Shown here piece after piece: positions 10,040 through 29,182 of a stretch of DNA of 31,454 nucleotides (position 1 is its first letter; each line of letters starts with the position of its first letter). The DNA lies in IMG/VR virus record IMGVR_UViG_3300031974_004379, positions 1 through 31,454 of that record; one strand, written 5' to 3'. The position numbers and the translations under genes are program-made. Source of the DNA: a virus. The notes beneath the pieces were generated by a model. That model ran no database searches. It was not told the DNA's origin and worked only from the letters and a program-made list of their open reading frames with translations.

Positions 10040-10818
10040 TAAGGCAAACCAGAACATACTATGTTGATGTCGGTAGAACATCAAAAGCCCTAACTACGGA
10101 CAGCGAAAGATTTAGTGCCTCTACAGTATCTTTTTTCGAGGGCGACCATGTAGAAATAAACTTGTATTTTAAAGACTACAAAAACGATGAAATATTAAGA
10201 CTTGAGCCAAATGAATCTATCGTTTGCTCTGTAGCAACTAAAAGCAGTTTAAATAGTGTAGAAAATAACTTTATTGCAATACACGAAACATTTGATGCGA
10301 ATCTTGATTCAGATGGAAACACATATTATCAAGGCGAAATAAACTTAGCCACTCAAGAGGCAGTAGATGCTTTAACTAGATCAAAAACAGAAGCGGTTTT
10401 AGAAGTAGTTATTGTAAGAACAGATTTGGGGCATCAAAGTACGTTTCAAGCAGAATGTAGAATATTAAGGTCAGTTGCTCCAGCAACATTGCATGAACTT
10501 GTTACTCCATCTGCACATATAGGCAGTTATGCTACTGCTAGGCAAATGATGGAGGAAATTGCCGATCAGCGAATATTAGATTTAAAAGACGGCGCACCAT
10601 TAGAGTTTGATACACTCTATGAGTTAGCTCATTATGCTCAAAAAGTAAGAAGTCACGAAATTGTAATAGGGGATTTTGACGATTACATGGACGGAAAGCT
10701 TTTGGTTGATCAAAACTTAACAGTATCGCAATTGCACGCACTAGCCCAAAATGAGGCTACATACGAGGTAACACATGAGCCTTGGAGACCTAAGAATTTA
10801 CAGGTTACTATTGTATGA
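10036..10818 (+). CDS. Tail fibre- or baseplate-linked protein
   Basis: A 260-residue protein with no named family that I recognise. Residues 1-145 are strand-rich, with an immunoglobulin-like or baseplate-upper-protein feel (SFFEGDHVEINLYFKDY, then EAVLEVVIVRT). Residues 180-201 contain DLKDGAPLEFDTLYELAHYA, close to the DGAP-x-x-L-DTL-x-ELA element found in many phage tail fibres, which supports a host-contact or fibre-linker role. It starts a chain of overlapping genes: ATGA overlaps on both sides couple it to the connector gene and to the 476-residue protein. Function inferred only to the level of virion or tail tip. Confidence 0.7.
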   Translation: MIRQTRTYYVDVGRTSKALTTDSERFSASTVSFFEGDHVEINLYFKDYKNDEILRLEPNESIVCSVATKSSLNSVENNFIAIHETFDANLDSDGNTYYQGEINLATQEAVDALTRSKTEAVLEVVIVRTDLGHQSTFQAECRILRSVAPATLHELVTPSAHIGSYATARQMMEEIADQRILDLKDGAPLEFDTLYELAHYAQKVRSHEIVIGDFDDYMDGKLLVDQNLTVSQLHALAQNEATYEVTHEPWRPKNLQVTIV

Positions 10819-12245: not shown

Positions 12246-13807
12246 TGGAAAATTACATACCCATAAATGGACAATCCATTAAGCTTTTGGCTTATGCATC
12301 ATCAGGCTTGCCTGTAAGCTATTCTGTTATAGAAGGTGCGGGCAATGTAAGCATTACTCCAAATGGAGACTTTTTTTACATAAGTCCTGTAGCAATAGGA
12401 TACAGCAAGTTGCTTGCTACACAATCTGGCAATGAAGAATATGCACGTGCATACCCAGTTAGTAAGCTTGTGCGAGTAATAGGCTTGCCAGATACTTTAA
12501 CTGTAGAAGCAAGCGTAATGGTTGAGCCACTAGCACCAAGTAATCCTGTTATACAGCAACTAGAGCCACCTAGTGAAATTAGTGGACTATTAGATACTGC
12601 ACCACTAGAGCCAACTAGCGTAAGGATTATAGATCGCACACCTAAAAAGGCAAGTAAGGTTGTAGCATTATGTGCCCCAAGTGGCTTGTCGAGCGTAACA
12701 GTTTATGATTATGACAACAGACCCGCTGGGTATGGGCAGGATGCTATTGTTGTTAGAGCTAGTATAATAATAGCACCGCAAGAAGAACCTAGCTTTGTGT
12801 ATGCATCGCAGGTTCAAGCACCTACTATGCAATATGCTTTGGAGCTTACAAAATTACAAAATAAAAGAAGTGCAGAAACTACTGCACAAGTAAAATTATT
12901 TAATATAGACCCAAGACTTTTATGGGACGAGGCATTTACTACTAATAGTACGATAACTAATGTAAGAAATCAATATCTTACCACATCTACCGATTTATAT
13001 GGATTAACATATAATCCAATGATGACTTTTGAGTCTAGACCTGCTACAGACATAACAGAATTTTATTTCAATGATACAAGTAATATCTCATTAGCTGGAA
13101 AGTATGTGCAGGAAAAGGAAGCAGATTCTGCCTATAGAATAGTATGGAAACAATGGGGCACTAGCACACCTTTTTATATATATTTCGTAGCAGTTAAAGT
13201 ACACGTTCATGTATTAAACATAGATGCATTAGGGCAGAATGATGCAGGAATTAGTGGACTAAATAAATTTTATGAATATGAAGACAGCCTATATGCTTCT
13301 GGGCACACAGGAGGCACTGCATACGAAGATTGGGAATATAATAATATACTACTCAATTATGGACCAGACGTAATATGGGATATAGCAGATACGAAGAATT
13401 TCGGTTTTTATATTATTGATAGCGATAAGAATAAATCGAGGGGCTATAATTTACATTGTCTTTATCCGTATAGTGGCACAGAGATCTCATTCAATGCTTT
13501 AAGCACACAACAACAAAAGCTTTTAGTATATGGAGCATCAAAAGATGCCGTTGCTAGGTCTGGGGCAATACTTTTTGACCATCTTGCGGGTGATCCTTTA
13601 TACCATTATGACGCCTGGGATAGTAGTTTGCAGAAAAACGACTGGAGTCCAGTTTACCCAACTCCATTTCAAGAAAACTTCAAAGATATACATCCAGACT
13701 TCGGAATCCAGCCATACGCTATTGGTGGCGAAAATATTGTTATAGAACTAGCAGACAAAAGCACGTTGCCACTTTCGGCTAGTGCAGTAACCGCAACTGG
13801 AACATGA
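12245..13807 (+). CDS. Large virion protein with N-terminal Ig-like domain
   Basis: I place the start at ATG 12245, which overlaps the previous stop as TGATG; a TTG five codons earlier is also open but less likely. The product has 520 residues. The first 75 resemble bacterial Ig or MBG-type domains: GLPVSYSVIEGAGNVSITPNG, then ATQSGNEEYARA. Residues about 85-140 are Pro-rich linker. The rest is aromatic, Asp/Asn-rich and strand-like, with no family that I recognise. It overlaps the next gene by four bases. The position between a Ca-binding protein and an esterase-like protein suggests a structural part of a receptor-binding apparatus. Confidence 0.73.
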   Translation: MENYIPINGQSIKLLAYASSGLPVSYSVIEGAGNVSITPNGDFFYISPVAIGYSKLLATQSGNEEYARAYPVSKLVRVIGLPDTLTVEASVMVEPLAPSNPVIQQLEPPSEISGLLDTAPLEPTSVRIIDRTPKKASKVVALCAPSGLSSVTVYDYDNRPAGYGQDAIVVRASIIIAPQEEPSFVYASQVQAPTMQYALELTKLQNKRSAETTAQVKLFNIDPRLLWDEAFTTNSTITNVRNQYLTTSTDLYGLTYNPMMTFESRPATDITEFYFNDTSNISLAGKYVQEKEADSAYRIVWKQWGTSTPFYIYFVAVKVHVHVLNIDALGQNDAGISGLNKFYEYEDSLYASGHTGGTAYEDWEYNNILLNYGPDVIWDIADTKNFGFYIIDSDKNKSRGYNLHCLYPYSGTEISFNALSTQQQKLLVYGASKDAVARSGAILFDHLAGDPLYHYDAWDSSLQKNDWSPVYPTPFQENFKDIHPDFGIQPYAIGGENIVIELADKSTLPLSASAVTATGT

Positions 13808-16701
13808 CAAAAGAAATAGGCATATTTTTCCAAGACCCATCTGAAAGGGAGGATGGATACAAAGTCGAAATAGACGATGTTAATGTAGGCAAGATTACAA
13901 TTGATGCTAACAACCAGCAATTTGTGCAAGAAGGTGAAGTAGAATTAAAAACATCGAACACGCCATCTCCAGACAGCGTAGGAGAAGACTATCAAATTAA
14001 CATTAATAATAATGATAAAGGCACAAAGAAAGTTACTATTATAAATTTTAATAGTTCTGGTGAAACAAAAAAACAAATCGGATATGCAGATGTATACAGA
14101 AGGAGCAATTTATATTTATATATAGGAGACGAGCAAGTGCTTGGAGAATCTAATGTCTCTGAGTTATCTTTATATGAAGGGCAATCTGCTGAAACACTAG
14201 AGCAAATAATAGATCAGTGCCAAATTAAAACTATATATAAATCTGGCACAATGGTTGAGGGTAGCTGGAAAGATATGCAAGCCAGCAATTATGCAAAAGA
14301 TAATAAGTTTGGTGCAGAGCTTAGTATGGCAGATGGGTTAAGAAATTCTCTTAATAAACCTATTGCCGTTTGGCGACTCTCTATACCTTCTGCAATAGCA
14401 AGCACTAGTTATGCATCTGGAGCCGATGGTCTTACATATATACAAAATAATATTAACGCACACATACAAGAACTGCGTGATAACTTTGTGCAAGGCAGAC
14501 TTTCTGGTGTTATCATAAATATGGAAAACAGAGACACTAATATGATAACTGCCTATCAAGATTTAATTGATTGGTTGCGGTCATATTTCGATTTTCCAGA
14601 CTTGCCTATTGTTATTGTAGACAGAAAAGGCACTGAGGATTTGGTTTCTGATGATGATGACGTCATGTTTGAAATACAAGACAAAGGCGACAGGATTGGC
14701 TCATATTACAGGGAGCGTGGATTACTTGGTTTTTATAGTTCTGCTAAACATTTATCTGGCTTTGATAGGCTTGAGTGGAGGAAAGTGTTTGAATCAAACG
14801 GCAATCCAGTTAATGGGGCACAATATATTCAGTGGGGATATAGTCCGTATGGATTGTCAGTAAATCTGAATGGTGCGTATGCTGAATATGTGCCAAATCA
14901 TGGATTTATGTATCACAAAGCAGTGACTGGATTAACAAATCGCCAGCTATATTTTGATATAGCCAAATACTCATTGCATCATGTTTATTATGGATTTCCG
15001 TTGCCTTTTTACATAAAAGAAAAAGGGAGCAGTTGCAAAACTGTACCACAATGGAAAGATTATTTTAAATTTAATACTTATGAGGAGATGTTCCTATGGG
15101 CACAAAATTATAATTTAGATTTAAACGCAATATGGGCTAATCCGACAAATAGTAATTCCGCGTACAATTTAGTTAGAATTAATAAATATGCAGATTTCGA
15201 TTTATATGAAAATTCTGGCGAAACCATGGCAAGTAGAGCACCACTTAACTCATATAATTTTTGGCTGAAAGATCAAGATATAGTTAGTGGAGGGGATACT
15301 ACATTAGAGCTACAATTATACAATCATGGTGGCATAAATGAGTATACGACTAGCATAATAGGCTATAATGTAAACACAGGGAGCAGTACATCAATAGAAT
15401 TGTATGGATACTACCCTTCATTAAAACCTTATGGCAACAACCTTGGTAAGCCTAATAATTCTTATGATAACGGATTATTAGGTAGTCAAAAGGCTACTTT
15501 TATAGATGCTCACTATGGCACTCCAAATGGCTACTCAGATACGATTGCTCCATACAGCAATCCAAAACTTCCACTAAGTCAATATTTGCCATTTGTAACT
15601 AGTGGCGTAGGTCTAGTTTTTTTCAAAAAAAGGGGATTTGCAATATATGATGAAACATTTAGTTTCATGCAAGAACTCGAAACTAATAATAAAAATGTTT
15701 GCATAACTACTGCCCATCACTTGGAAAAAGTGCAGAATATGCTAACTGCTAAATCTAGTATAGAGCTTGGTTACAATATTGCAAGTTGCCTAACTCCTTC
15801 TATATATACGCAAGGAGGTGACATTGAGGAATTAGCTCCGATAAATCATCTTGATGCTACCAAGCATACACCAATGCCTGTAAATAATGACACATTTGTC
15901 AAGCCAGCCGAATATATAGAAAAGGGATTTGATTCCTACGATAGGCTAACTGGAGGTTTGATAAAAATGCCAAGGGGATATCCGACAGACTTTAGTAATC
16001 CCCAGTATATTGCAGACGATTATCGCAAAGCAGGTATGACATTGTCTGGCACACCTACTTATCCTGTTTCTAGGCAAGTATTTACACATTCAGCAAACTT
16101 TATAAATGGCAAACCTGCTTACATGATCGATAAAGAGCTGTATGGATGGCATACCAGTCTTACTAGTGCCTTTAGGACAGGATTTTTCAACACTACTACG
16201 TTTCAAAACACTAACGCAGGGTTTACTGAAATCTATCGCGCCAAAAGATGTACTATATTTGTAGTAGCTAGACCGACTGAAGTACTGAGGGGAAGTTTTA
16301 TATTTCAAAAAAATCCTAGATTTCTAATACACCTGCCTTGGGACAATTATAGAGGTTATTTTGATATCAATAATCTAGATCAAAGAAACTCTCGTATTTC
16401 TTTTTCTTTTCCACTACAAGTGCCAATTGTTTGTGTATTTAGTTACGATAACCATAAGCGGGAATCGTTTGTCAAAGTCAATGGCATCTTAGCAAAGAAA
16501 AATACTAATACTCCTGCGGGTAGTGGGTTAAATAGTACTGATCCTGTATTTTTGAATGGTTATTATAATCAAAATGCAGGTATTGCACACTTTAATAATC
16601 CAATGGCATTAGGTGAACTATTTTTTACTACACAAGAAGTTACAGTAGATTCTGTATCCAAATACGAACAATCCTTAATGGAAAAATGGAACATAAATTA
16701 A
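13804..16701 (+). CDS. Tail protein with SGNH/sialate O-acetylesterase-like and concanavalin-like domains
   Basis: A 965-residue protein. Residues about 100-325 follow the sialate O-acetylesterase (SASA) layout: LYLYIGDEQVLGESN with Ser116 in the nucleophile block, FGAELSMADGL (169-179), KPIAVWRLSIPSA (185-197), then GVIINMENRD with YQDLIDWLRSYFDFPDLPIVIVD, and H316 in SSAKHL. Such domains remove acetyl groups from host glycans. The block that usually reads QGE-x-D is altered to NMENRD, so activity is uncertain. Residues about 740-965 form a concanavalin/LamG-like domain (NFINGKPAYMIDKELYGW, CTIFVVARP, ending YEQSLMEKWNIN). The 330-740 region is unknown. A role in binding or modifying surface polysaccharide follows from the domains. 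Confidence 0.78.
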   Translation: MTKEIGIFFQDPSEREDGYKVEIDDVNVGKITIDANNQQFVQEGEVELKTSNTPSPDSVGEDYQININNNDKGTKKVTIINFNSSGETKKQIGYADVYRRSNLYLYIGDEQVLGESNVSELSLYEGQSAETLEQIIDQCQIKTIYKSGTMVEGSWKDMQASNYAKDNKFGAELSMADGLRNSLNKPIAVWRLSIPSAIASTSYASGADGLTYIQNNINAHIQELRDNFVQGRLSGVIINMENRDTNMITAYQDLIDWLRSYFDFPDLPIVIVDRKGTEDLVSDDDDVMFEIQDKGDRIGSYYRERGLLGFYSSAKHLSGFDRLEWRKVFESNGNPVNGAQYIQWGYSPYGLSVNLNGAYAEYVPNHGFMYHKAVTGLTNRQLYFDIAKYSLHHVYYGFPLPFYIKEKGSSCKTVPQWKDYFKFNTYEEMFLWAQNYNLDLNAIWANPTNSNSAYNLVRINKYADFDLYENSGETMASRAPLNSYNFWLKDQDIVSGGDTTLELQLYNHGGINEYTTSIIGYNVNTGSSTSIELYGYYPSLKPYGNNLGKPNNSYDNGLLGSQKATFIDAHYGTPNGYSDTIAPYSNPKLPLSQYLPFVTSGVGLVFFKKRGFAIYDETFSFMQELETNNKNVCITTAHHLEKVQNMLTAKSSIELGYNIASCLTPSIYTQGGDIEELAPINHLDATKHTPMPVNNDTFVKPAEYIEKGFDSYDRLTGGLIKMPRGYPTDFSNPQYIADDYRKAGMTLSGTPTYPVSRQVFTHSANFINGKPAYMIDKELYGWHTSLTSAFRTGFFNTTTFQNTNAGFTEIYRAKRCTIFVVARPTEVLRGSFIFQKNPRFLIHLPWDNYRGYFDINNLDQRNSRISFSFPLQVPIVCVFSYDNHKRESFVKVNGILAKKNTNTPAGSGLNSTDPVFLNGYYNQNAGIAHFNNPMALGELFFTTQEVTVDSVSKYEQSLMEKWNIN

Positions 16702-16702
16702 T

Positions 16703-17047
16703 ATGAGCAAACTTATACAACTTACATGGACAGATGAGGCAGATAATGAAACGACTCATTCTGTATATCGTGGGTCTGATCTGAATATGACATCCGCAAG
16801 CGGGACATTTCTATTTAAAATAGACTGGGATGGCACATCTTGGAATATTGATTCCGCAAGCCAAGATTCAAGTATTAATTCAATACAGGTACTGCAAGAT
16901 GGAGGGGCTCCAACAACAGTTAGTCAAGACTTCCAAGTCGAGTTTGTTGATACTGTATTAGGAGAGCATTATTATGGTGTTTCAGCAAGCAATGCCACTG
17001 GTGCTAGTGATGTAGTTCCTAGTAGCTCTAGTATATTAATAGACTAG
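16703..17047 (+). CDS. Small fibronectin type III-like protein, first of a tandem pair
   Basis: A 114-residue protein that is nearly one fibronectin III-like domain: LIQLTWTDEADNETTHSVYRG, then DGTSWNI, and HYYGVSASNATGAS near the end, which matches the Y-x-Y-x-V-x-A-x-N-x-x-G core of such domains. Fibronectin III domains in phage virions usually bind or display on the surface. The next gene encodes a diverged copy with the same motif order. No Shine-Dalgarno sequence precedes the ATG, which starts one base after the previous stop. Confidence 0.7.
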   Translation: MSKLIQLTWTDEADNETTHSVYRGSDLNMTSASGTFLFKIDWDGTSWNIDSASQDSSINSIQVLQDGGAPTTVSQDFQVEFVDTVLGEHYYGVSASNATGASDVVPSSSSILID

Positions 17048-17061
17048 TGGAGACACAAAAA
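17048..17061 (+). promoter_or_regulatory. Intercistronic motif, variant TGGAGACACAAAAA
   Basis: The sequence directly follows the stop codon of the first fibronectin-like gene. It matches the motif at 6899 and 20406 except for two inserted bases (AC). It lies 20 bases before the next ATG, which has its own purine-rich site (GAGAGG), so it is not needed as the ribosome site. Confidence 0.4.
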
Positions 17062-17081
17062 CAATTATAGAGAGGCACATT

Positions 17082-17408
17082 ATGGCAAAAATACAAATAT
17101 CTTTCCAAGACAATTCAGATAACGAAGACGAGTTTCGCATTTACAGAGGTACTGCTAATCCAGTAACGACTACAGACACTTTGATTGCAACTTTGTCGCA
17201 TGATGGAACCAACTGGTCTGTTGCAGGTGCTGGAAGCAATTTAGAAATTTCTCAAGGCGTTAATAATGACCCTACTTCTGCTGGCGATCAATATGTTGTA
17301 CTTTATGACGAGACAACCGCTGGCGATTATTATTATGGCGTCCTAGCATCCAATGCCGTTGGAGATTCAGCCATTTCTACATCTGGATTAGTAACTGTAA
17401 CTTCTTAA
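17082..17408 (+). CDS. Small fibronectin type III-like protein, second of a tandem pair
   Basis: A 108-residue paralogue of the preceding gene. Shared landmarks are DNE followed by YRG, a DGT-x-W-x-V/I strand, and DYYYGVLASNAVGDS near the end. The two proteins are clearly related at these points but otherwise diverged. A free-standing Ig-fold of this size may decorate the virion or act as a tail-fibre adaptor. GAGAGG lies about seven bases before the ATG. The tandem pair sits between two large recognition proteins. Confidence 0.72.
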   Translation: MAKIQISFQDNSDNEDEFRIYRGTANPVTTTDTLIATLSHDGTNWSVAGAGSNLEISQGVNNDPTSAGDQYVVLYDETTAGDYYYGVLASNAVGDSAISTSGLVTVTS

Positions 17409-17433
17409 AATGCCAAAATGGAAGTGCTGATTT

Positions 17434-18909
17434 ATGAGCTTCCTAAAAGCAGTAGGCATAGATGTTGGCATAGTAGAAAAAAGCCTTCATTACAGAATTG
17501 ATAGTTTAGACGCTAGTACTCTAGCGTATAGTCCTGTAAGTATCGCTAATTGGGGTGTATGTGGATGCACCTCGCTTGGGAATATACAATCTGCATTAGA
17601 TACTTTAGCCCAAGTCCGTGCCCTTGACGTTGACGATACAAACGACTTAGAGAGCAGAATAACTACATTAGAGAGTGGTGGTGGAAGTGGATTAAGTAAT
17701 TGGTCTGAAGATAGCAATGGTCATTTACTTCCATCTTCCAATGATACTTATGATATAGGTAATGCATCTGCCAAGGTGAGGCATTTTTATTTAGGCAGTA
17801 CATCCCTTAAAATAGGAGATGCAAACGATGATGAAAACGATTTATTTTCAGCCAATAAGGAATGGTTTGAAAGCAGAGCATCTACAGTTTCACTTGGCAA
17901 CATAGAGGTATCTTTAGGCAATTTGGCGGGAAGAGTTAATACCCTAGAAGGTGCGACAGATGATGATTCTGCCTATGCAACAAAAGTTAGCCTTGGGCAG
18001 TTAGATACAAGAGTTGGGGGATTAGAAACTTTATCTGCCTATTCCATAGCAACACTTCCTGCATCCGCTAATGATGGCACACAAGCCCTTGTTAGCGATG
18101 GTGCTGACACAGGGGTAGCATTGGCATATCATTATGATAGAGCATGGTATAGATCATTTGATAATTTAGTTTTAGCTGATAGTAAATGGTCACCCGCAGA
18201 TACAACTACTGAATTGTGGTACGATGCAAGTGATTTAAGTTCCCTTACTGTAAGTGGCACAGACTTGACACAATGGGGTGATAAGAGTGGAAATGGGTAT
18301 CATTTAACAAAGGATCAAAATGCTAATAGCGATGCACAAAGTGGTACAGCTACATTGAGGGGTCGTAATGTTATAGAATTTGATTCGGGGAATTGCTTAA
18401 CCAATAAAAATTGGAGCTACGATCAAAATACAGCACCTATATTTATAGCTTTGGTTACCAAAGCCTATATTGATGCGGGACAAGATTTCCTTCTTCATCA
18501 CACAGATTCTACTAGCAAAAGACAAGCTATGAGAAGAACAACCGCAAATTCTTTGCAATGGTTAGGTAGCGATACAGATGCAACCAGTCGTAATTTATCA
18601 GTTAGTGGTTACCCAGAGGGAGATGATAATATAATTATTCTTAAAATAGGAGCATCAAGTTCCTATTTAAAATTACTAAATGGTAGTGGCGATCAGTTTA
18701 CATCAGGTAACACAGGAAATAATCCCTTGGCTCATATAAGTGTAGGAGCCAATGAATTTGAGTTAAGTCAATTGGTTGGATATTTTGCAGAAATTGTATA
18801 TTTCAAAGCAGATTCCGATGTATTAAAGGTTGAAGGTTATCTTGCCCATAAATGGGGATTGCAAGCTTATCTTCCATCAGATCACACCTATAAATCCTTA
18901 GCACCATAA
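17434..18909 (+). CDS. Trimeric tail fibre with C-terminal concanavalin/LamG-like domain
   Basis: A 491-residue fibre protein. Residues 66-80 and 152-200 are short coiled coils (NDLESRITTLE; LGNLAGRVNTLEG; LGQLDTRVGGLETL) of the trimeric-fibre type. Residues 98-120 (LLPSSNDTYDIGN, then VRHFYLG) are the repeat seen in many tail fibres. Residues about 228-243 (VALAYHYDRAWYRSFD) are a common fibre strand motif. From about 260 to the end lies a concanavalin/LamG-like sandwich (ELWYDASDLSSL, TQWGDKSGNGYHLT, ending GYLAHKWGLQAYLP), which probably binds glycans. It is a strong receptor-binding candidate. The stop overlaps the next ATG by one base. Confidence 0.82.
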   Translation: MSFLKAVGIDVGIVEKSLHYRIDSLDASTLAYSPVSIANWGVCGCTSLGNIQSALDTLAQVRALDVDDTNDLESRITTLESGGGSGLSNWSEDSNGHLLPSSNDTYDIGNASAKVRHFYLGSTSLKIGDANDDENDLFSANKEWFESRASTVSLGNIEVSLGNLAGRVNTLEGATDDDSAYATKVSLGQLDTRVGGLETLSAYSIATLPASANDGTQALVSDGADTGVALAYHYDRAWYRSFDNLVLADSKWSPADTTTELWYDASDLSSLTVSGTDLTQWGDKSGNGYHLTKDQNANSDAQSGTATLRGRNVIEFDSGNCLTNKNWSYDQNTAPIFIALVTKAYIDAGQDFLLHHTDSTSKRQAMRRTTANSLQWLGSDTDATSRNLSVSGYPEGDDNIIILKIGASSSYLKLLNGSGDQFTSGNTGNNPLAHISVGANEFELSQLVGYFAEIVYFKADSDVLKVEGYLAHKWGLQAYLPSDHTYKSLAP

Positions 18910-19265
18910 TGGCTACCGAAGTAGGAGATAATGTGCAAGTAAAGGCTAACCTTGCGTTCATGGCAAAGGTCATTGCAATTGTTGGTACTTGTGTTTGGGG
19001 ATATTCTGTAGTTTGGAACAAGCTTATTGCTTTAGATAATGGATTGGGCAGGGTTCAGCACGAAGGAACAATGCTAGGTGATTTGTCTGCACGAATGTTG
19101 CATTTAGAGAAATATTCTGAGCAATCAAAAGCAGACTTAGATCATTTGCTGTCTATGCAAGATCAACCAATTACTTCTGATCATCAGCAATTTGAAAGAA
19201 TAAGGTATCTTGAAAAAGAATTGGATAGATTGCGTAGCAAAGTGGACAATCATTTGACGAAGTGA
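18909..19265 (+). CDS. One-TM plus coiled-coil membrane protein (lysis or spanin-like candidate)
   Basis: A 118-residue protein with a single hydrophobic segment at about 14-37 (LAFMAKVIAIVGTCVWGYSVVW), followed by a charged, heptad-like helix from about 55 to the end (RMLHLEKYSEQSKADLDHLL; RIRYLEKELDRLRSKV). An N-terminal anchor with a helical body outside or inside the membrane is the layout of inner-membrane spanins and of XhlA-type proteins. The next gene is a 3-TM holin-like protein, which supports a lysis role. It lacks a diagnostic motif, so the name is inference. One base overlaps the fibre gene's stop. Confidence 0.65.
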   Translation: MATEVGDNVQVKANLAFMAKVIAIVGTCVWGYSVVWNKLIALDNGLGRVQHEGTMLGDLSARMLHLEKYSEQSKADLDHLLSMQDQPITSDHQQFERIRYLEKELDRLRSKVDNHLTK

Positions 19266-19266
19266 A

Positions 19267-19728
19267 ATGGGTGAAATCTTGCTTATGTTACTTACAGGGG
19301 GGGGCTCTACGGCTATGGGGGCTATCCTTAAAGGTGCGTTCGGCTTCGTTTTCGAGAATCGTAGGCAAAAGCACGAGTTGGAACTGGCAAGAGAAACTCG
19401 TGCAAATGAAAATTTCATTAAGTTACAAAATTCAATACATCAAGGAGGTAATGGGGAATTTGTTTCTTTTAGTAGGCGTATCATTGCTTTTATGGGCGTT
19501 GGTACTCTTTGCTTGTGCGTCTTGCTCTGCACCATCTTCCCTCAAGCAGAGTTTCTATCAATCACCAATGCCAGTGGAGAAGGACGAACTGAATGGTTAT
19601 TCGGAATCTTGTCCTACCCCTCAACGCAGGAACCAATCCATCTCTCTAGTGGACACCTTGCCTATATGGGACAAACGGCTCTCTGTGGAATATTAGGGTT
19701 TTATTTTGGTCCAAGTCCACGCAGATGA
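19267..19728 (+). CDS. Three-TM holin-like protein
   Basis: A 153-residue protein with three hydrophobic segments at about 3-28, 71-92 and 130-148. A charged helix follows the first (ENRRQKHELELARETRANENFIKLQ). This is the pattern of the 3-TM phage holin superfamily, whose members form lethal membrane holes to time lysis. Base use differs from its neighbours: two 60-base lines counted here have 29 G+C of 60, against an AT-rich background, and TTC, CTT and GGG codons are frequent. A run of eight G lies in codons 11-13. The +1 frame is open throughout and could encode a lipoprotein-like peptide. It overlaps the following microgene by four bases. Confidence 0.74.
   Translation: MGEILLMLLTGGGSTAMGAILKGAFGFVFENRRQKHELELARETRANENFIKLQNSIHQGGNGEFVSFSRRIIAFMGVGTLCLCVLLCTIFPQAEFLSITNASGEGRTEWLFGILSYPSTQEPIHLSSGHLAYMGQTALCGILGFYFGPSPRR
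19297..19304 (+). repeat. G8 homopolymer tract in the holin-like gene
   Basis: Eight consecutive G occupy codons 11-13 of the holin-like gene in an otherwise AT-rich sequence. Such tracts slip during replication and can act as on-off switches. Loss of one G would move reading into the +1 frame, which stays open to 19696. Confidence 0.6.
19451..19696 (+). CDS. Possible embedded lipoprotein-like ORF in +1 frame of the holin gene
   Basis: An 81-residue reading frame lies wholly inside the holin-like gene. A perfect AAGGAGGT (19442-19449) sits one base before its ATG, which is too close for normal use; a TTG at 19460 in the same frame has ten bases of spacing. The product would begin with a hydrophobic segment (LFLLVGVSLLLWALVLFACASC) and continue with a Ser/Pro-rich tail. 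That order recalls Rz1-type outer-membrane spanins, which are also embedded in +1. The LFA-C lipobox is imperfect, and GGA-GGT glycine codons alone explain the ribosome site. Treat as a candidate only. Confidence 0.25.
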   Translation: MGNLFLLVGVSLLLWALVLFACASCSAPSSLKQSFYQSPMPVEKDELNGYSESCPTPQRRNQSISLVDTLPIWDKRLSVEY

Positions 19729-19799
19729 GTTCAATAATTGCAGTATTTTTAATTATATTTATACTCATAGAAATAATTATAAGCAGGAATGGAAACTAA
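19725..19799 (+). CDS. 24-residue hydrophobic microprotein in the lysis-like cluster
   Basis: A 24-codon gene starts in an ATGA overlap with the holin-like stop and ends 11 bases inside the next gene. After MSS it is nearly all Ile, Leu, Phe and Val (IIAVFLIIFILIEIII) with a single Glu, then a short polar tail SRNGN. It would be one short transmembrane helix. Overlap at both ends means that it fills a gap that would otherwise be 60 bases of non-coding sequence in a tightly packed cluster. It could tune the holin or be a small toxic membrane peptide. Size makes chance possible; the couplings argue for a real gene. Confidence 0.5.
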   Translation: MSSIIAVFLIIFILIEIIISRNGN

Positions 19800-20010
19800 T
19801 CTTTTAATACAAATTTTCATGGGAGTGATTATCGGAATAGGGGGTTTTTTTATAAAACATCTCTTTCATACATTGCATTACCACGAAAAAAGAATAAATG
19901 AACTTGAGGTTCTTGTTAGCAAGCAATCTGCCGATAATGTAAATTTATTCAAAAAGATAGATAACATTGAGCAAAAAATAGATAGAATGCTCGAAAAGTT
20001 TATAAAATGA
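19789..20010 (+). CDS. Small one-TM plus coiled-coil protein (XhlA-like layout)
   Basis: A 73-residue protein. Residues 5-27 are hydrophobic (LLIQIFMGVIIGIGGFFIKHLF). Residues 32-70 form a coiled coil (EKRINELEVLVSKQ, then KKIDNIEQKIDRMLEKF). XhlA-type lysis accessory proteins and small tail-associated membrane proteins share this layout. It is the second one-TM plus coiled-coil gene of the cluster, on the other side of the holin-like gene. AGGA lies immediately before the ATG, too near for a strong site. The stop overlaps the next start as ATGA, coupling it to the tail genes. Confidence 0.68.
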   Translation: METNLLIQIFMGVIIGIGGFFIKHLFHTLHYHEKRINELEVLVSKQSADNVNLFKKIDNIEQKIDRMLEKFIK

Positions 20011-21366: not shown

Positions 21367-21807
21367 ATGGACATAGACGATATAAAACAATACTTGGAGC
21401 CAGAGGGAGATAAAATTGGCAAAGTATCAATAAGGAAACCCACCGCAGGCACTTTAAGTTTATGTGATTTTGCACAATTGAAAATTGCATCTGGCGGGGC
21501 AACCTCCGTACCTTTTTATGAAGCAATTGCATTTTTTTTCATCCACTCTCAGCCATTAGAGTATGTTAGGTCGTTAATCTTTGACTCCTCAAAAGGTCAT
21601 AATGAGAGTGGATGCTCTTTAGTGTTTGTCAATGAAGTAATACAATGGGGCGACACAGTTGATCTTGGATCAATTAATGAAATGGGTGATAAAATAAGCG
21701 AACTTCTAGTGTCTGCATTAACGCCAAAAGTAGAACCACTAAACGAAAGCTCGGCAGAAGACGACGTCAAAAATCTGATTTCAGAGATTGATGGTAAAAA
21801 AAAATAA
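21367..21807 (+). CDS. Tail assembly chaperone G-like (zero-frame product)
   Basis: A 146-residue acidic protein that starts one base after the previous stop and ends in a Lys run, GKKK, before TAA. Its place before the tape measure, its length, the Arg-Lys-Pro strand near the start (GKVSIRKPTAGTLSLCDF) and the A9 slippery run at its very end identify it as the G-type tail assembly chaperone, which holds the tape measure in a state ready for tube polymerisation. A minority of ribosomes should slip at the A-run to make the GT form. Confidence 0.87.
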   Translation: MDIDDIKQYLEPEGDKIGKVSIRKPTAGTLSLCDFAQLKIASGGATSVPFYEAIAFFFIHSQPLEYVRSLIFDSSKGHNESGCSLVFVNEVIQWGDTVDLGSINEMGDKISELLVSALTPKVEPLNESSAEDDVKNLISEIDGKKK

Positions 21808-21986
21808 ACCCTCCCGCATTTAATGTTATCGCATTTGCATTAGCAAAAGGTAATGCATTAGGGGCAGATAAAATATTTTGGGAAATGCCATTACAAATAG
21901 TATGGCATCACCTATGGTGTTATTATCAATATAATGGCACTAAAATAAGGCGTATTGGTGAAGACAAAAACCCAATATTAGAATGA
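21367..21986 (+). CDS. Tail assembly chaperone GT-like (product of -1 frameshift)
   Basis: A one-base backward slip on A9 (21796-21804) carries ribosomes past the TAA at 21805 into the -1 frame. That frame continues for 60 codons from 21804 to the TGA at 21984-21986, giving about 206 residues. The extension looks like real protein: AFNVIAFALAKGNALGADKIF, then a Trp/Tyr-rich helix (QIVWHHLWCYYQYNG) and a basic end. That -1 stop overlaps the ATG of the next gene as ATGA, just as other gene pairs here do, which is strong evidence that the extension is translated. In lambda the T part of GT contacts the tail tube protein. No strong downstream stem is visible by eye. Confidence 0.9.
21796..21804 (+). 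promoter_or_regulatory. Programmed -1 frameshift slippery site (A9)
   Basis: GGT AAA AAA AAA TAA gives nine consecutive A directly before the zero-frame stop, so A and P site lysine tRNAs can slip back one base and re-pair perfectly. The stop follows at once, which also favours pausing. The frame entered is open for 60 codons. Confidence 0.88.
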
Positions 21987-22642
21987 TCACTATGTCCATG
22001 CAAACTAGGGCTTTAAACAAAACCCTAGATAAATATGTCAAGCTCAACAAGCGTGGCACGGCAGGGCTAGTGGAACATACATTAAGAAAAGTAGTTACAG
22101 GTTTTAGTCCAAGATCTAAGTCTGCAGTTAAAGTAAAAGGGCTTAGGCAGATATTCTATGAAAAGAGAGCTACAAGAACAAAGATATTGCAAGAGTTTCG
22201 TACAAGAGAACGAACAAAAAAAGGAACACTTAGACCGCCAAAACACTATGTAAGTCTTACTGCAAAACGAGAAAAGAATAAAAAATATCCAAAACTAGGA
22301 CTCGCAAGAACAAAATGGCAAGCAATTGGTTGGAGAAGTTACAGGGGGACAGCATGGGTTCAAGCCACAATGCTCTATAAGACCTGGCGTCCTACTGAAA
22401 GACCTAAGAATGCAAGGTTTAAACCTTCATTAGATGCAAAGCATGGGGGCAAAGTGCCACCGACTGGCGTAAGGATTAGAACTTTAGGCAAGAAGGCAAC
22501 TGCAATTTGGTTTAGCAGATTAGAGGCAGTAGTAAAAAATAAGCACTATAAGCGAGCCCGTCGCACTGCACTAAGCAATGTAAGAAAAGATATGCAAACT
22601 TACATAAGACGCAAACATAAGGAAATTAAGAAAAGTCTATGA
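21983..22642 (+). CDS. Highly basic tail-region protein of unknown function
   Basis: A 219-residue protein with about 60 Lys/Arg and about 11 Asp/Glu by my count. It has no membrane segment or motif that I recognise; Trp and Tyr are scattered in the middle (LARTKWQAIGWRSYRGTAWVQ). An inner ATG at 21992 (MSMQT) is an alternative start, but the first ATG overlaps the chaperone GT stop as ATGA. It ends in an ATGA overlap with the tape measure. Tail tip or tail assembly proteins, or proteins bound to the very acidic or polar tape measure, are possible roles. The gene is well supported; the function is not. Confidence 0.75.
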   Translation: MITMSMQTRALNKTLDKYVKLNKRGTAGLVEHTLRKVVTGFSPRSKSAVKVKGLRQIFYEKRATRTKILQEFRTRERTKKGTLRPPKHYVSLTAKREKNKKYPKLGLARTKWQAIGWRSYRGTAWVQATMLYKTWRPTERPKNARFKPSLDAKHGGKVPPTGVRIRTLGKKATAIWFSRLEAVVKNKHYKRARRTALSNVRKDMQTYIRRKHKEIKKSL

Positions 22643-25600
22643 ATACAGAAATTAAAATAACTGCTGACATCAAAAGCGTAGAGCAGAAGTTGGGCAAGGT
22701 AAAAGGCACACTTGGCAGTGTAGCTGAAGCCGCCAGAGGAGCTACAAGTATGATTAGCAAACTTACTTCTAGTATTGCAAGAGTTGGTAAAATTTCAGTT
22801 GGCTTTGGTGGCGTTGTAGGAGCAGGAAGTTTTGTGGCATCTGAAAAAAGTTTTAGAAAATTTGAGCACAGCATGATGGAGGCATTTACGTTGTTGCCAA
22901 AAGCTAACAAACAAGCTTTTGCACAAATGAAAAAAGATGCATTAGAGTTCTCCGAAAGATATGGCGTATCTACCGAAGAGGTTGCCGCAGGTATGTATCA
23001 AAGTCTTAGTGCAGGCATTAATCCAAAAGACCTAAAGTCCTTTATGCAAACGGCACAAGAGTCAGCTATTGCGGGAGTAACTGACTTAAGAACGTCTGTA
23101 GATGCATTGACTAATATTATGAATGCCTACGGGCAGGAAACATACGATGTAGAATATCTATCAGATGTTTTATTTAAGGGCATCACTATGTCTAAATTAA
23201 CCTTTGAAGAGTTAAGTAGATATATGTATCAAGCTATTCCTACTGCCGCCGCATTAAAACTAAATATAGTAGATTTGGTAGGAGCTATATCCGCTTTAAG
23301 TGCTACAGGTACACTTACACGGGTAGGTGCAACGCAATTTAGACAATTTTTAGTAGAGCTTCAAGATCACGGATCGCAAGCAAATACTATATTTCGAAGA
23401 ATGAACCAAGGTATATCTTTTCAGCAATTTATTGCAGAAGGAGGTAGAATACTAGACGTAGTAGAAAGCTTGCGAAGGGGGGCAAGGGCGGCAGGCTTAG
23501 ATATGGCTAATTTGTTCTCTAGTATTGAAGCGGGGAATGCGGCGCGTCAAATGGACAACTTTGAGAGATTTGAAGCCATGATTAAAGAGACAGAATTTAA
23601 TTCTGGTGGCTCAAAAAATTCAGCATTTGGCAAAATGGAGGGTACACTGCAAAAGGCTTTTGATAGAATGAAAGCCTCCTTCTTTAACTTTTTTACTCGC
23701 ATAGGGGAAGTATTAGAACCTGCATTTAGGACGTTTTATAACTTTACCGATGAGCTAAGTAGATCCTTGCGTGAAGATATAGACTGGCAAGGCATTTCAA
23801 AAGAATTTGAATATGCATGGAAAGTATTGCTAAATGTAGCAAAGGGTGGCACTGACGAACTAGCAAGTTATCTAAAGAACGAAATAAAACTTGCAGTACT
23901 TGACGCATACGAATCGATAGTTAACATCTTTAGTAAGGCGAGCAAATTTTTTGCACAGGTTTTTAGTTTGGATAGCAATGAGTTTTATAAGCTAACTGAT
24001 GCTTTAGTAGTTGTAGCTAAAAATTTTGGCATGACTCTTGTAGATTCATTGCGAGAACATTTGCCCAAAATAGTAAACTTATTTTCACCTGTAGTAGCTT
24101 TTCTGCAAGCATCTATACAAAGTGCAATAGATAGCCTCAATCCATTTAAAGACGAAGACTTTGACGAAATAAGACAACAAAAGGCAGAGTCTTTCGGTGC
24201 GATAGGTAGCAAAGAGCGAGACGAGGCATTACTGCGGGCTAATGACGAAGATACAAGGCAGGGTTTAGAGCAATATGCTCAAAAGAATACAGAACAATTC
24301 CTAGAAAGAAATAATTATCAAAATAAAGTTCTTCAAGGCGAACTCAATGAAGATCGTAATGCCTTTGATAAGTTTATTTACGATGCTTATGGCACCTTTG
24401 ATAAAAAGATGAACGAATTTGTGCCAGACATGTTGATGGGCAGAAGAGTATTATCTGGCGACGAAAAGATAGTATACGGCATGACTGCCAAAAATATATT
24501 AGAAGATCAGCAACTAAGGATGGATTTCGATAAACTAGGCGGGCATTATGATATTGGAATTAGTTTAGGCGACGCCATAAAGAAATATTTTGACCAACAA
24601 AATATCACAAAAGAGAACATTCCATTGCCCCCAAGCGTTATAGATGAAAACTTTATTGGTGATGGTTACGAGCTTGACCTTAACCAAATAATAAAGCCCG
24701 AGAACTTTAATACTAAGGGATTGATGCAATTGCGTAATCTACTTGCGACAATTAGCAAGAATGCAGAGTTCTTAGAAAATGCCTTCCCGCAAGCAAATAC
24801 ACGCAACCTTGTAAAAGGTAAAATGAATAAAGCTCTGACAGACATTTTAGGTTTTGAGCAGATGCTTTTAGGCACATTGTATGACGCAGAGGTGGGCATG
24901 GGCTTACGCAATGAAATTACGCAAGATACCGTTCAGTTCCAAAGAGAATACAATCAAGCTATTGAGCAGTTAAATGCATTTGCGGAAGAAATGCAAGTGT
25001 ACGAGAAGAACAATGCCAGCAATCGAACAAATGCTAGGGATAAAGAGAGAGAAGAAGCAAGGAAGCAATTAGGCGTAGCTTTTGACGAGTTTATAAACAA
25101 GGTAGGCACGGTAGATATATCATCGTTAGAGCCAGACAATGAAGTATCAAAAGACATAGAACAGAAACGCGATGCATTCTTAGCAAAGCGTAAAGCGTTT
25201 ATAAAGAAATATGGGCAAGGAATAACTTTAGAAGACCCAATGCTTGCGGAATTTGGTGCATTCGATTTGCCTAAAAGTCCCGCACAGCCTCCTTATGAAA
25301 TTAAGCCACTTTTCAGAGAAATAACTGCTGATTCCAAACAAAGGGTCGGGGGAGGAGGAGGTGCATTTTCATTTGAAAATGTACAACAAAAACTAGTAGA
25401 TGCTAATGTTTCACTGAAAGATGCAGTAAAAGACTTAACTCAAGAAATAAAGAATACTCTGCCTTTTGTATTTGAAGACAAAGACGAAGGTATAGAGCAG
25501 AAATTTAAGAATTTTAAAGGTATTGCTCCTGTGTCTCTGCCTATTGATGACGCAACTGCAACAAAGGATACAAATTATACTCAACAGGAAATAGAAAATA

Positions 25601-28242
25601 TATTTAACGATATTTTTAACACAGAAGAAAATATTGAGAAGAATACAGATGTTAATAATTCGCAAAATATAAAGAAGACAAGAAGTACTAGCACGCAAGA
25701 ATCTGATTCTGTTTTTACAAAAACAAAAAAGCTAGATGTAGAGATTAGTGCAAGTAAAACAAAAGCAGACGATGAAAGCACTCAGAAAGTAAGTAAAACA
25801 AGCAGTGCTATAAATTTAGTCAAAGATGTAAAAAACGCTGTACAGTCATTTATTTCTTCCGATGAAGATAAAAGTAAGTCCGTAAAAACATTACTGGAAA
25901 ATATTAAATCAAGTGCTCGCACTTTTAAGGAAGACGTAACGCAAAAGAGCAAAGCAACTAAAGAAACTAATCAAAGTGCTACTTTAGATAAAAGCATATT
26001 AGAAACTAAAAAGCTTGAAAGTCTAGATATTAAAACTTTCGGGCAAGTGCTTATATCTTCTGCAAAGAGAGCTTTTACTAGCAACACTAGCGAAGATACT
26101 AAAAAGCTAAATAAAGAAAACATTACTACGCTAGGCGAAAACATACAAAAGGACAATATAGTATCTAGCAAAAAAATAGATGATAAGATAAAAACAGATG
26201 CAAACAAAGTATCAATTGATACCATAAACGCAGAAGTAAATGAAATTAATATTTCTAAACAGAAGGACACTTCGCAAAGGGACACTAAAGACGAGCAAGT
26301 AAATAGAATAGAAAATAATTCGATTAATAGGGCATTAGTAAATAAATCCATCTCGTCCTCAACTGATCTTAATAAGCAAAGTGATGCTTTAAGCACAGAC
26401 GAACAAGCTACTACATCAAAGGAAGATAAGATAAAGAAAATAGCTAAGACTATTGCTGAAGCAACAACGTTAGATCAAAAGGAAGTTAGAAGACAATTTA
26501 AAGAAAAGACAGGCAGGGAGTATAAGGATTCTACTAACGAAGAGCGGAATCAATTTAAAAGAAATATGGTTGATGAGCAATTGCGACAAGCAAGGCAAGA
26601 AATTCAATCATATCTTAGTAGCGATAAGAAAAGTAGTACTATCGAAAAAAATACTTCCGTAAATGCAGATTTAGAAGAGAGTGTAATTAAATCAAATAGC
26701 ACACAAAGTAGTAATACTGCCAGCACCGCAGAAATAATTAACCTTGTGCAGGAAGTAGCAAAGAATAGTGTTATAGATACAAGTGTATTATCAACTGCCT
26801 TTAAGGAAACTACTGGGAAAGAATTTAACTCAGCAACAAGTCAAGAAAAGGAGTCATTTAGTAAAGAGGCATTTCTAAACAATATATCAAAGGCAACGCA
26901 GGGCATAGAAGAGTTTTTTACTAAAAAGGAAACACTTGAGACACAGAAGTCAGAAAATGACAAAATGTCAAAACTTGCAGAAAATGAAACTGTAAATAAA
27001 ACTCAAGACACAAAAAACTTTTCCATAAATAAAAAGAGTGCTTTAGAAAAATCTGAGAGTGTAAGCTCCCAGACCAAAAAAGTTATAGAAACTTTGAAAA
27101 TTGTTGCAGAAAGCAACATTGATCTAACAAATAAAAAAGAGGTTTTAGTACAAAGCAAATTAGTATCTAGTACTTTACTAAATAAGGATATTGACCAAAT
27201 TGACAAAATTACAAGTGATGAAAGTAAAAGTTCAAGCTCTGTAATAAATAAGTCTCAAGAAAGAAATAATACTCAATCTACGCAAGGCATTGCAGAGTTC
27301 TTTAGTAAAAAAAGTACGGACGAGAGCAAAACTAAAACGCAAGGCATTGCCGAGTTTTTTAATAAAAAGACCACGGATGAAAGCGGGACTAAAACGCAGG
27401 GAATTGCGGAGTTTTTTAACAAAAAGACAACGGAAGAAAGCGATACAAAAACAGAAGAGAGCGACAGGAAAACCCAAACGCAAGGTATAGCAGAATTTTT
27501 TAGCAAACAAAGTACAGACGAGAGCCAAGCAAAAACACAGGGCATAGAAGAGTTCTTTAGTAAGACGAGCACTGATGAGAAAAAAGACAAAAGGCAAACG
27601 GATGAAATTTTAACAAAAGCAAAAAATGAAGCAAGCAAGTCAGTTGCTGAATCTATTTCTAAAAGTGTAAGTTTAGGAAAAACTACAAACAATAAACAGC
27701 AAAGTGCAGACAGCGAAGAAATTACTATAGAAAAGATTAATAAAGCTTTTTCTAAAACAAACACTGATAGTAAAGAATCTATATTTAAGGCATCTAAAAT
27801 TATTGGGGTTGTAGAAGATGCAATGAGCCAGACAAGCAAGGCAGTAAGCACAAAAGTAAATAGAGTTTTTACGGAAAAAAAGGAATCGCAAAGCGTAACA
27901 AAAGACACCCCTTTCAGTTCAGACAAAAAACCTAAAGTAAATAATACTCCTACGGCAGAGGAAGCTTTTAAAATAAAAAAAGAGAGCAGAGTTAAAGATA
28001 GCAATACAACTACCAATCGCGTCTTCAAAGATGTCCTAGATATGAATAAAACAACTATTGGTTTAGGTAGACAGCAGGTGGATAAACAAACAAGTGCAAT
28101 GTCAGCAAATGATCTGCAACCACTAATCAATGCACTTAATAGTGCGGGGGCAAATATAAATAACGCAAGTGCGGGAATGGCGAATATAGCAAGCAAAAAC
28201 CAACAAGCAACAATCGAAGATATATATCCAACAAATTTTTGA
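22639..28242 (+). CDS. Tail tape measure protein (TP901 type) with a very long polar, repeat-bearing C-terminal half
   Basis: The 1867-residue product sets tail length and is ejected with DNA. Residues about 70-300 are the TP901-type core: FEHSMMEAFTLLPKANKQAFAQ, then YGVSTEEVAAGMYQSLSAGI, and further to ATGTLTRVGATQFRQFL. A short hydrophobic stretch lies at about 50-65. The middle is helical. After a Gly run at about 905 the rest is Ser/Thr/Lys/Glu/Asn-rich and probably disordered or helical. Within it, a 59-residue unit occurs twice (1268-1326, 1369-1427), and a 19-residue unit TQGIAEFF-x-K-x-x-T-D/E-E is repeated five times (1548-1651). By the usual 0.15 nm per residue rule the tail could be near 280 nm. 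ATGA couples it upstream. Confidence 0.95.
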   Translation: MNTEIKITADIKSVEQKLGKVKGTLGSVAEAARGATSMISKLTSSIARVGKISVGFGGVVGAGSFVASEKSFRKFEHSMMEAFTLLPKANKQAFAQMKKDALEFSERYGVSTEEVAAGMYQSLSAGINPKDLKSFMQTAQESAIAGVTDLRTSVDALTNIMNAYGQETYDVEYLSDVLFKGITMSKLTFEELSRYMYQAIPTAAALKLNIVDLVGAISALSATGTLTRVGATQFRQFLVELQDHGSQANTIFRRMNQGISFQQFIAEGGRILDVVESLRRGARAAGLDMANLFSSIEAGNAARQMDNFERFEAMIKETEFNSGGSKNSAFGKMEGTLQKAFDRMKASFFNFFTRIGEVLEPAFRTFYNFTDELSRSLREDIDWQGISKEFEYAWKVLLNVAKGGTDELASYLKNEIKLAVLDAYESIVNIFSKASKFFAQVFSLDSNEFYKLTDALVVVAKNFGMTLVDSLREHLPKIVNLFSPVVAFLQASIQSAIDSLNPFKDEDFDEIRQQKAESFGAIGSKERDEALLRANDEDTRQGLEQYAQKNTEQFLERNNYQNKVLQGELNEDRNAFDKFIYDAYGTFDKKMNEFVPDMLMGRRVLSGDEKIVYGMTAKNILEDQQLRMDFDKLGGHYDIGISLGDAIKKYFDQQNITKENIPLPPSVIDENFIGDGYELDLNQIIKPENFNTKGLMQLRNLLATISKNAEFLENAFPQANTRNLVKGKMNKALTDILGFEQMLLGTLYDAEVGMGLRNEITQDTVQFQREYNQAIEQLNAFAEEMQVYEKNNASNRTNARDKEREEARKQLGVAFDEFINKVGTVDISSLEPDNEVSKDIEQKRDAFLAKRKAFIKKYGQGITLEDPMLAEFGAFDLPKSPAQPPYEIKPLFREITADSKQRVGGGGGAFSFENVQQKLVDANVSLKDAVKDLTQEIKNTLPFVFEDKDEGIEQKFKNFKGIAPVSLPIDDATATKDTNYTQQEIENIFNDIFNTEENIEKNTDVNNSQNIKKTRSTSTQESDSVFTKTKKLDVEISASKTKADDESTQKVSKTSSAINLVKDVKNAVQSFISSDEDKSKSVKTLLENIKSSARTFKEDVTQKSKATKETNQSATLDKSILETKKLESLDIKTFGQVLISSAKRAFTSNTSEDTKKLNKENITTLGENIQKDNIVSSKKIDDKIKTDANKVSIDTINAEVNEINISKQKDTSQRDTKDEQVNRIENNSINRALVNKSISSSTDLNKQSDALSTDEQATTSKEDKIKKIAKTIAEATTLDQKEVRRQFKEKTGREYKDSTNEERNQFKRNMVDEQLRQARQEIQSYLSSDKKSSTIEKNTSVNADLEESVIKSNSTQSSNTASTAEIINLVQEVAKNSVIDTSVLSTAFKETTGKEFNSATSQEKESFSKEAFLNNISKATQGIEEFFTKKETLETQKSENDKMSKLAENETVNKTQDTKNFSINKKSALEKSESVSSQTKKVIETLKIVAESNIDLTNKKEVLVQSKLVSSTLLNKDIDQIDKITSDESKSSSSVINKSQERNNTQSTQGIAEFFSKKSTDESKTKTQGIAEFFNKKTTDESGTKTQGIAEFFNKKTTEESDTKTEESDRKTQTQGIAEFFSKQSTDESQAKTQGIEEFFSKTSTDEKKDKRQTDEILTKAKNEASKSVAESISKSVSLGKTTNNKQQSADSEEITIEKINKAFSKTNTDSKESIFKASKIIGVVEDAMSQTSKAVSTKVNRVFTEKKESQSVTKDTPFSSDKKPKVNNTPTAEEAFKIKKESRVKDSNTTTNRVFKDVLDMNKTTIGLGRQQVDKQTSAMSANDLQPLINALNSAGANINNASAGMANIASKNQQATIEDIYPTNF
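26440..26616 (+). repeat. Tape measure internal 59-residue repeat, copy A
   Basis: This encodes tape measure residues 1268-1326. Aligned without gaps to copy B, 14 of 59 residues are identical, including FKE-x-TG-x-E (positions 20-27 of the unit) and the end A-x-Q-x-I. It ends ARQEIQSYL, a diverged form of the QGIAEFF motif. Confidence 0.65.
26743..26919 (+). repeat. Tape measure internal 59-residue repeat, copy B
   Basis: This encodes residues 1369-1427, exactly 101 residues (303 bases) after copy A. It ends ATQGIEEFF, the same motif that is later amplified as the 19-residue tandem units. Confidence 0.65.
27280..27591 (+). repeat. Five 19-residue tandem units (57 bases) in the tape measure gene
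   Basis: Units begin at residues 1548, 1567, 1586, 1614 and 1633. Spacing is 19, 19, 28 and 19, the longer one having a nine-residue insert rich in Glu, Lys and Thr. The core TQGI(A/E)EFF is invariant but its codons differ: GGC/GGA/GGT for Gly, ATT/ATA for Ile, GCA/GCC/GCG for Ala, TTC/TTT for Phe. The DNA copies have diverged while the peptide has not, so the peptide is under selection. Confidence 0.88.
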
Positions 28243-28243
28243 A

Positions 28244-29182
28244 ATGGCGAAAGTAATACAAAATCCCGCACTTCTTTTTGGAGCCGCTCAGACGACTAAC
28301 AGTATTGAGGAGCAGGCAACAAATGGAGAAAATATAAGTGTAGATATAGACGGCATTTGGACTGCCAATTTCATTTATGTTATGAGGTTTAAGCAGGGTC
28401 TTGAAAAAGCACGAGAAACCGAAAATCATCCACATTACGGAGATTTGGTAAAAACTAATTGGGGCGTGCAACGACTGGATGGAGACCTGGGCAGATTTAC
28501 TTTAGTATGTAAGGGCGTCGAAAAAGGGGCATATAATGTAAGGTACAATATATCGAGTGCAACACAGGCAGAGCCAATAGAGACGCATCCATTTTTTGAT
28601 GAAGGCGAGACCATACCAGACGACGCAGAGCGAGTTAGCGACAATGAAGATGCCTATGGGTATAGATTCGGTGACCCAATTGATAGTGGCATGGGCGGTG
28701 GTCTTGGTAGTAAGCAAGCTATATTTGAAACACTAAGTGGCAATAAAATTTTTAAAGGTTTTCCCTTAAACTCCAAGTTTGACCTGCAAGGTGTAACGCA
28801 GTTTTTAAATATTGGTATGTCATTGCGATGCACAATTGTAACACATGCAGACAATAATTTTTTAACAGCTATTACTACAGATGATGTAAGTAAGGGTGGA
28901 GGAATATATTATGTTGGTCAAATAGCAGACCCACCTAGCGACATTGCTCCTAATGTAGATTTGTTGCCAACAGCGGGAGGCACGGAAGCTAGTCATAATT
29001 GGTTAGTAACTAAATGCGATGTGGAAATCATTGGATCGGCAATGAAGCAAACAGTTGAGTTTACACTCTCTGGTTATTTAGGCTGGAATAGACTAATATA
29101 CAATTTAAATGCTGGTGGATTTGCTGGTATTGCAGATACTCGATTTAGTGGTGCATTACCTACAGGGGGCTCTAGTTTGTAA
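28244..29182 (+). CDS. Distal tail or tail-tip protein candidate
   Basis: A 312-residue protein starting one base after the tape measure stop. It is a mix of strands and loops: an aromatic segment with NGENISVDIDGIWTANFIYV, a Gly-rich part (GMGGGLGS, about 149-156) and a last strand-rich section with VEFTLSGYLGWNRLIYNL. Distal tail proteins and tail-tip hub proteins lie directly after the tape measure in siphophages, so that is the likely class. I see no motif that settles it. No Shine-Dalgarno site is evident. Confidence 0.72.
   Translation: MAKVIQNPALLFGAAQTTNSIEEQATNGENISVDIDGIWTANFIYVMRFKQGLEKARETENHPHYGDLVKTNWGVQRLDGDLGRFTLVCKGVEKGAYNVRYNISSATQAEPIETHPFFDEGETIPDDAERVSDNEDAYGYRFGDPIDSGMGGGLGSKQAIFETLSGNKIFKGFPLNSKFDLQGVTQFLNIGMSLRCTIVTHADNNFLTAITTDDVSKGGGIYYVGQIADPPSDIAPNVDLLPTAGGTEASHNWLVTKCDVEIIGSAMKQTVEFTLSGYLGWNRLIYNLNAGGFAGIADTRFSGALPTGGSSL

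Follow-up and report, generated by a model that had tools for sequence, protein, structure and literature searches.

Repeats of tape measure proteins conserve W or F at fixed positions, and such residues are described as points at which small auxiliary proteins are anchored (PMC3271669; PMC5099701). The TP901-1 tape measure has 29 mapped aromatic repeats, 11 or 18 residues long, which were suggested to meet the chaperone; putting alanines in place of a single aromatic repeat caused no change (PMC5099701). In the chaperone pair, binding to the tape measure falls to G and recruitment of the tube protein to T (PMC4493119). Here we analyzed a 31,454-nt IMG/VR record over its whole length (the window), in which the tape measure gene encodes a short array of FF-containing repeats. 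That such repeats act as docking points is an idea already proposed elsewhere (PMC3271669; PMC5099701), and its extension by analogy to this protein is a plausible, unproven interpretation.

The tape measure gene and its chaperone neighbors

The 1867-residue product of the gene beginning at position 22639 is a tape measure, as a preliminary description of this DNA had proposed. Pfam places a PF10145 domain (PhageMin_Tail, phage minor tail/tape measure) at residues 99–280 (E 2.8e-27), and the combination of this domain with a long gene shortly downstream of a G/GT pair is that of a siphophage tape measure of the TP901-1 type. The N-terminal half of the protein is hydrophobic and conserved; the C-terminal half, from about residue 950, is polar and rich in K, S, T, E and N. 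Antisense to the array on the − strand runs a 332-codon open frame (27273–28271), which appears to mirror the polar codons and lacks support as a gene.

A single gene lies between the tape measure gene and the region 21367–21986. The first gene of this region had been taken for a G-type chaperone, and the assignment is borne out by its 3′ end (GGT AAA AAA AAA TAA), since the A9 run and a related −1 frame encoding T are common to four phages: the window, the relatives G010 and G011, and a fourth phage, L195 (Table 1). Neither G, T nor the candidate tube protein had a Pfam match, and the structure model of G was poor (mean pLDDT 53.6) with no significant match to solved structures. Gene position and reading frames support a lambda-type G/GT pair, with a previously unannotated frameshift, in these probable Verrucomicrobiota phages.

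Table 1. Positions of the tail genes, repeat units and duplicated segment in the window.
Feature	Position	Strand	Remarks
Candidate tail tube protein, 150 aa	20464..20916	+	Assigned by position only; 33–48% identical in relatives
Tail assembly chaperone G, 146 aa	21367..21807	+	51–52% identical in G010 and G011, same place upstream of tape measure
A9 slippery run, putative −1 frameshift G to GT	21796..21804	+	Same place in G010, G011 and L195
Putative T domain, −1 frame, INPPAFNVIAFALAKGNALGADKIFWEMPLQIVWHHLWCYYQYN...	21804..21986	+	Related −1 frame in G010, G011 and L195
Tape measure protein	22639..28242	+	1867-aa ORF; assigned by PF10145 match and composition
Ancient internal duplication	26359..26955	+	Residues 1241–1341 aligned with 1342–1439
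Single copy TQGIEEFF	26896..26919	+	Residues 1420–1427; end of second copy of duplicated helical segment
Unit 1, TQGIAEFFSKKSTDESKTK	27280..27336	+	Residues 1548–1566
Unit 2, TQGIAEFFNKKTTDESGTK	27337..27393	+	Residues 1567–1585
Unit 3, TQGIAEFFNKKTTEESDTK	27394..27450	+	Residues 1586–1604
9-residue insert TEESDRKTQ between units 3 and 4	27451..27477	+	In 21-nt tandem duplication 27429–27473
Unit 4, TQGIAEFFSKQSTDESQAK	27478..27534	+	Residues 1614–1632
Unit 5, TQGIEEFFSKTSTDEKKDK	27535..27591	+	Residues 1633–1651

Six copies of one motif and the selection on its core

The tape measure contains six copies of TQGI[AE]EFF, each beginning its unit or segment in Table 1, and the FF doublet is invariant in all of them. 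Five copies form the array and one stands alone 128 residues upstream. The preliminary description had correctly recognized five 19-residue units, the last ending at nt 27591, as well as the earlier single copy, which begins at residue 1420 (nt 26896) and not at 1421. Its picture of motifs evenly spaced in a featureless chain did not hold. Copy-to-copy distances within the array are 19, 19, 28 and 19 residues, the 28-residue step being due to the insert that breaks the array between units 3 and 4; moreover, the C-terminal half contains ∼22 further Phe residues outside the motif copies, and an ancient duplicated helical domain lies just upstream.

Within the five units, 7 of 8 columns of the core are invariant, compared with 4 of 11 in the linker. 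The 24-nt core is nevertheless spelled differently in every one of the six copies. Across the five units pN was 0.024 and pS 0.812 for the 8-residue core, whereas the 11-residue linker gave a pN of 0.217 and a pS of 0.926. Units used the same codon at matching residues in 74 of 143 comparisons (0.517). Drawing codons independently according to the usage of the ORF itself gives 0.480±0.052, so that the sharing does not exceed chance (p = 0.25), and synonymous sites between units are saturated. Because the synonymous differences are saturated (pS 0.81), with codon sharing at chance level, we rejected recent slippage or gene conversion between units. The duplication origin of the units is still visible in the DNA, Tandem Repeats Finder reporting units 1–3 as a 57-nt repeat with 82% matches; the identity stems from the conserved residues and is about what these alone give.

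We conclude that the core is held by purifying selection at the amino acid level, far more tightly than the linkers, as estimated from six copies within a single sequence. The contrast between core and linker would stand even if synonymous divergence were itself favored against recombination between repeats, because the two parts are equally old. These results agree with the earlier view of a selected short motif spelled with different synonymous codons in each unit rather than a product of recent DNA slippage, and at the codon level they are stronger than had been claimed. Chance or low complexity was likewise rejected as the source of the motif, given the number of copies, the pN and pS values and the best internal 15-mer self-matches of the tape measure, which scored 49–77 against a shuffled maximum of 44. 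Two further candidates were not adopted: a seventh copy at residue 1697 (ITIEKINKAFSKTNTDSK) scored 21.8, where shuffling gave a maximum of 19.5±3.2 (p = 0.22), and a general hydrophobic pattern at positions −4 and −1 of the other Phe residues gave uncorrected p-values of 0.06 and 0.03, which we considered too weak.

The array copies descend from internal duplication, and an older event of this kind is recorded upstream. The two copies of the ancient duplication align without gaps over ∼88 residues, 18 of them identical, with a local score of 103 against 39±7 for shuffled sequences (maximum 74; 0/1000). The isolated TQGIEEFF lies at the end of the second copy; the residues aligned with it in the first are RQEIQSYL (1319–1326). 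When this stretch was modeled alone with AlphaFold2, the first copy was predicted from one sequence, with confidence, to be a small helical domain (pLDDT up to 95), the second copy was similar but weaker, and the five array motifs appeared as short helices with coil between them, mostly at pLDDT below 50. The model of the tape measure stretch had no significant match to solved structures. A plausible history is that a helix end of the domain turned into a short, mobile motif, which may then have been multiplied.

Relatives of the phage and distribution of the motif

Terminase relatives at 72–83% identity are present in IMG/VR, and a Verrucomicrobiota MAG labeled Pedosphaera contains a relative at 40%. 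A near-identical sibling of the window is represented by one 5.5-kb fragment, L002, which stops short of the tape measure gene. The major capsid protein matches that of Verrucomicrobia phage P8625, whose terminase, portal and major capsid protein are homologous to those of the window and in the same order. Because of the relative in this MAG and the likeness to P8625 in capsid and gene order, the host is probably a member of the Verrucomicrobiota. In contrast, the P8625 tape measure is only ∼521 aa, does not match that of the window and lacks the FF array. Between the capsid and tail genes of the window (9725–18909) are probable fiber or receptor-binding genes, including one for a 491-aa protein with a LamG-like look; P8625 differs in that its annotated fiber genes come after the tape measure.

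Two distinct tape measures of relatives could be read whole, those of G010 (∼1684 aa) and of G011 (∼1374 aa; near-twin G012). Both are 40–45% identical to the window's protein over the N-terminal ∼500 residues, and their C-terminal parts scarcely align with it. The G010 tape measure does not contain TQGIxEFF, and the one look-alike in G011, QGIAEPFYK, was not significant (score 20.0 versus 14.3±3.6 for shuffled sequences) and is not claimed as a copy. Each has repeats of its own. In G011 (tape measure L106), AMPADVLAAFNQG and GxKAGxWEMV each occur two times within residues ∼1211–1330, close to PFF and PFY; the C-terminal repeat of G010 is marginal. The preliminary description had regarded relatives without the motif but with near-identical chaperones as evidence against docking. 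This case applies in part: the motif is missing from G010 and without a significant match in G011, and both keep G/GT, although at 51–52% identity these are not near-identical to those of the window.

Further scans of IMG/VR yielded no orthologue carrying the array. A scan with the tape measure N-terminus alone had no matches, and an alignment-based scan recovered the relatives already described, with the truncated tape measure of L195 as the one addition. The back-translated exact motif was found in no IMG/VR contig, a result to be read with the proviso that records very near the window may escape these scans. On present data, and with the same proviso for IMG/VR records very near the window, the array appears to be lineage-specific.

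The relatives also drew attention to a region outside the tape measure. Three small genes at 18909–20010 reach 82–90% identity in relatives (G010 has all three, G011 two of them), compared with 30–50% for neighboring tail genes, and relatives of 19267–19728 were confirmed in 89 IMG/VR stretches. The three genes may form a lysis cassette transferred as one block.

Possible roles of the array and comparison with described systems

The preliminary description had inferred that each motif docks a chaperone or tube subunit. We tentatively favor the explanation that, with this array, the flexible C-terminal half of the tape measure carries short docking helices particular to one phage lineage, and regard it as a serious possibility, somewhat short of probable. 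In its favor are the selection on the core, the predicted short helices, the G/GT pair just upstream and the precedent of the aromatic repeats; the harmless alanine replacement in TP901-1 (PMC5099701) speaks against it. Each core, according to the low-confidence structure prediction, would form one to two helical turns bearing I, F and F in a disordered polar chain. During tail assembly each I..FF turn would bind a hydrophobic groove on a tail protein present in repeated copies, the neighboring G/GT being the first choice as partner and the inner wall of the tube the other candidate, and the multiple copies would give avidity and keep the chain extended. Such an array may act in the way suggested for the W/F repeats of lactococcal-type tape measures, namely as chaperone anchors, although motif and spacing differ. 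It cannot be the main chaperone track, because it covers only ∼100 of the 1867 residues. Nor is the motif a general requirement or code for chaperone binding, because the near relatives G010 and G011 keep G/GT without a clear motif.

One alternative explanation is that tandem duplication simply lengthened the tape measure, and with it the tail, the motif being part of the copied segment and kept for its helix-forming or soluble residues rather than for a partner. Tape measures are known to lengthen and shorten by duplication (PMC3271669), the relatives each have their own unrelated C-terminal repeat, and alanine replacement of a TP901-1 repeat is tolerated (PMC5099701). Padding alone is nonetheless rather unlikely in our judgment, for it explains neither why replacement change in the core is ∼nine times below that in the equally old linker nor why a sixth copy stands by itself 128 residues upstream. 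The selection on the core would be accounted for equally well if the motif made a structural contact in the finished tail, packing against the tube interior or other tape measure copies instead of serving as a chaperone site. A siphophage tail tube ring measures ∼40 Å, and the 28-residue gap, if helical, would span ∼42 Å, near one ring. However, the main 19-residue step (∼28 Å if helical) does not fit this ring and the linkers are predicted as coil with very low confidence, so that we consider a contact of this kind unlikely.

We also considered roles after the phage has left tail assembly behind. Tape measures participate in DNA delivery (PMC5099701), and hydrophobic residues within a polar, ejectable chain could allow amphipathic I..FF turns to insert into the host envelope, or to interact with it or with a host protein, as DNA is delivered. 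A lone I-F-F patch on one to two turns of helix would be weak for membrane insertion, and the exact motif was absent from all 387 genomes sampled from the phylum proposed as host, probably Verrucomicrobiota, giving no sign of host protein mimicry; we therefore judge this role to be quite improbable. We attach equally little probability to the idea that a new short linear motif arose from the last helical turn of the duplicated domain and was multiplied in one lineage in the service of a partner outside tail assembly, such as an envelope or cytoplasmic host protein met at ejection. If a host partner did exist, the tape measure would double as a multivalent ligand delivered to the host. The PIP box through which PCNA is bound in archaea and eukaryotes has the form Q-x-x-[ILM]-x-x-[FY]-[FY], and the spacing of I and FF in the motif (x-x-x-I-x-x-F-F) fits it. 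A PCNA-binding decoy was rejected as next to inconceivable, since position 1 is Thr and not Gln in all copies, the PIP box pattern had no match in the tape measure, the relatives of the phage point to Verrucomicrobiota, and PCNA was not found in the one genome of the host phylum that was tested, with control archaea positive.

Tape measures have hardly any sequence in common, and for the question of how chaperones recognize them this compact, repeated and demonstrably selected motif offers a small, testable peptide. The C-terminal repeats differ between related phages whose G/GT are similar, which argues that any such docking code turns over fast.

The locus resembles two described arrangements. 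As in phage lambda (G/GT and gpH), G occupies the same gene position and a −1 frameshift appears to lead into T before the tape measure; in contrast to lambda, the slippery site is A9, and G and T matched no Pfam family. As in TP901-1, p2 and related phages, repeated aromatic residues occur in a tape measure adjoining a G/GT chaperone, and the tandem repeats have aromatics, here FF, at invariant positions. In TP901-1, p2 and related phages a W or F recurs every 11 or 18 residues along a large part of a helical protein, whereas the window's tape measure departs from this period (11-11-18): its six motif copies each have an FF doublet within the 8-residue core, the units are 19 residues long, and they lie in a C-terminal part that is polar and probably disordered. 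Aromatic docking repeats have been proposed for the tape measures of other phages, and the array is probably a version of them confined to one lineage.
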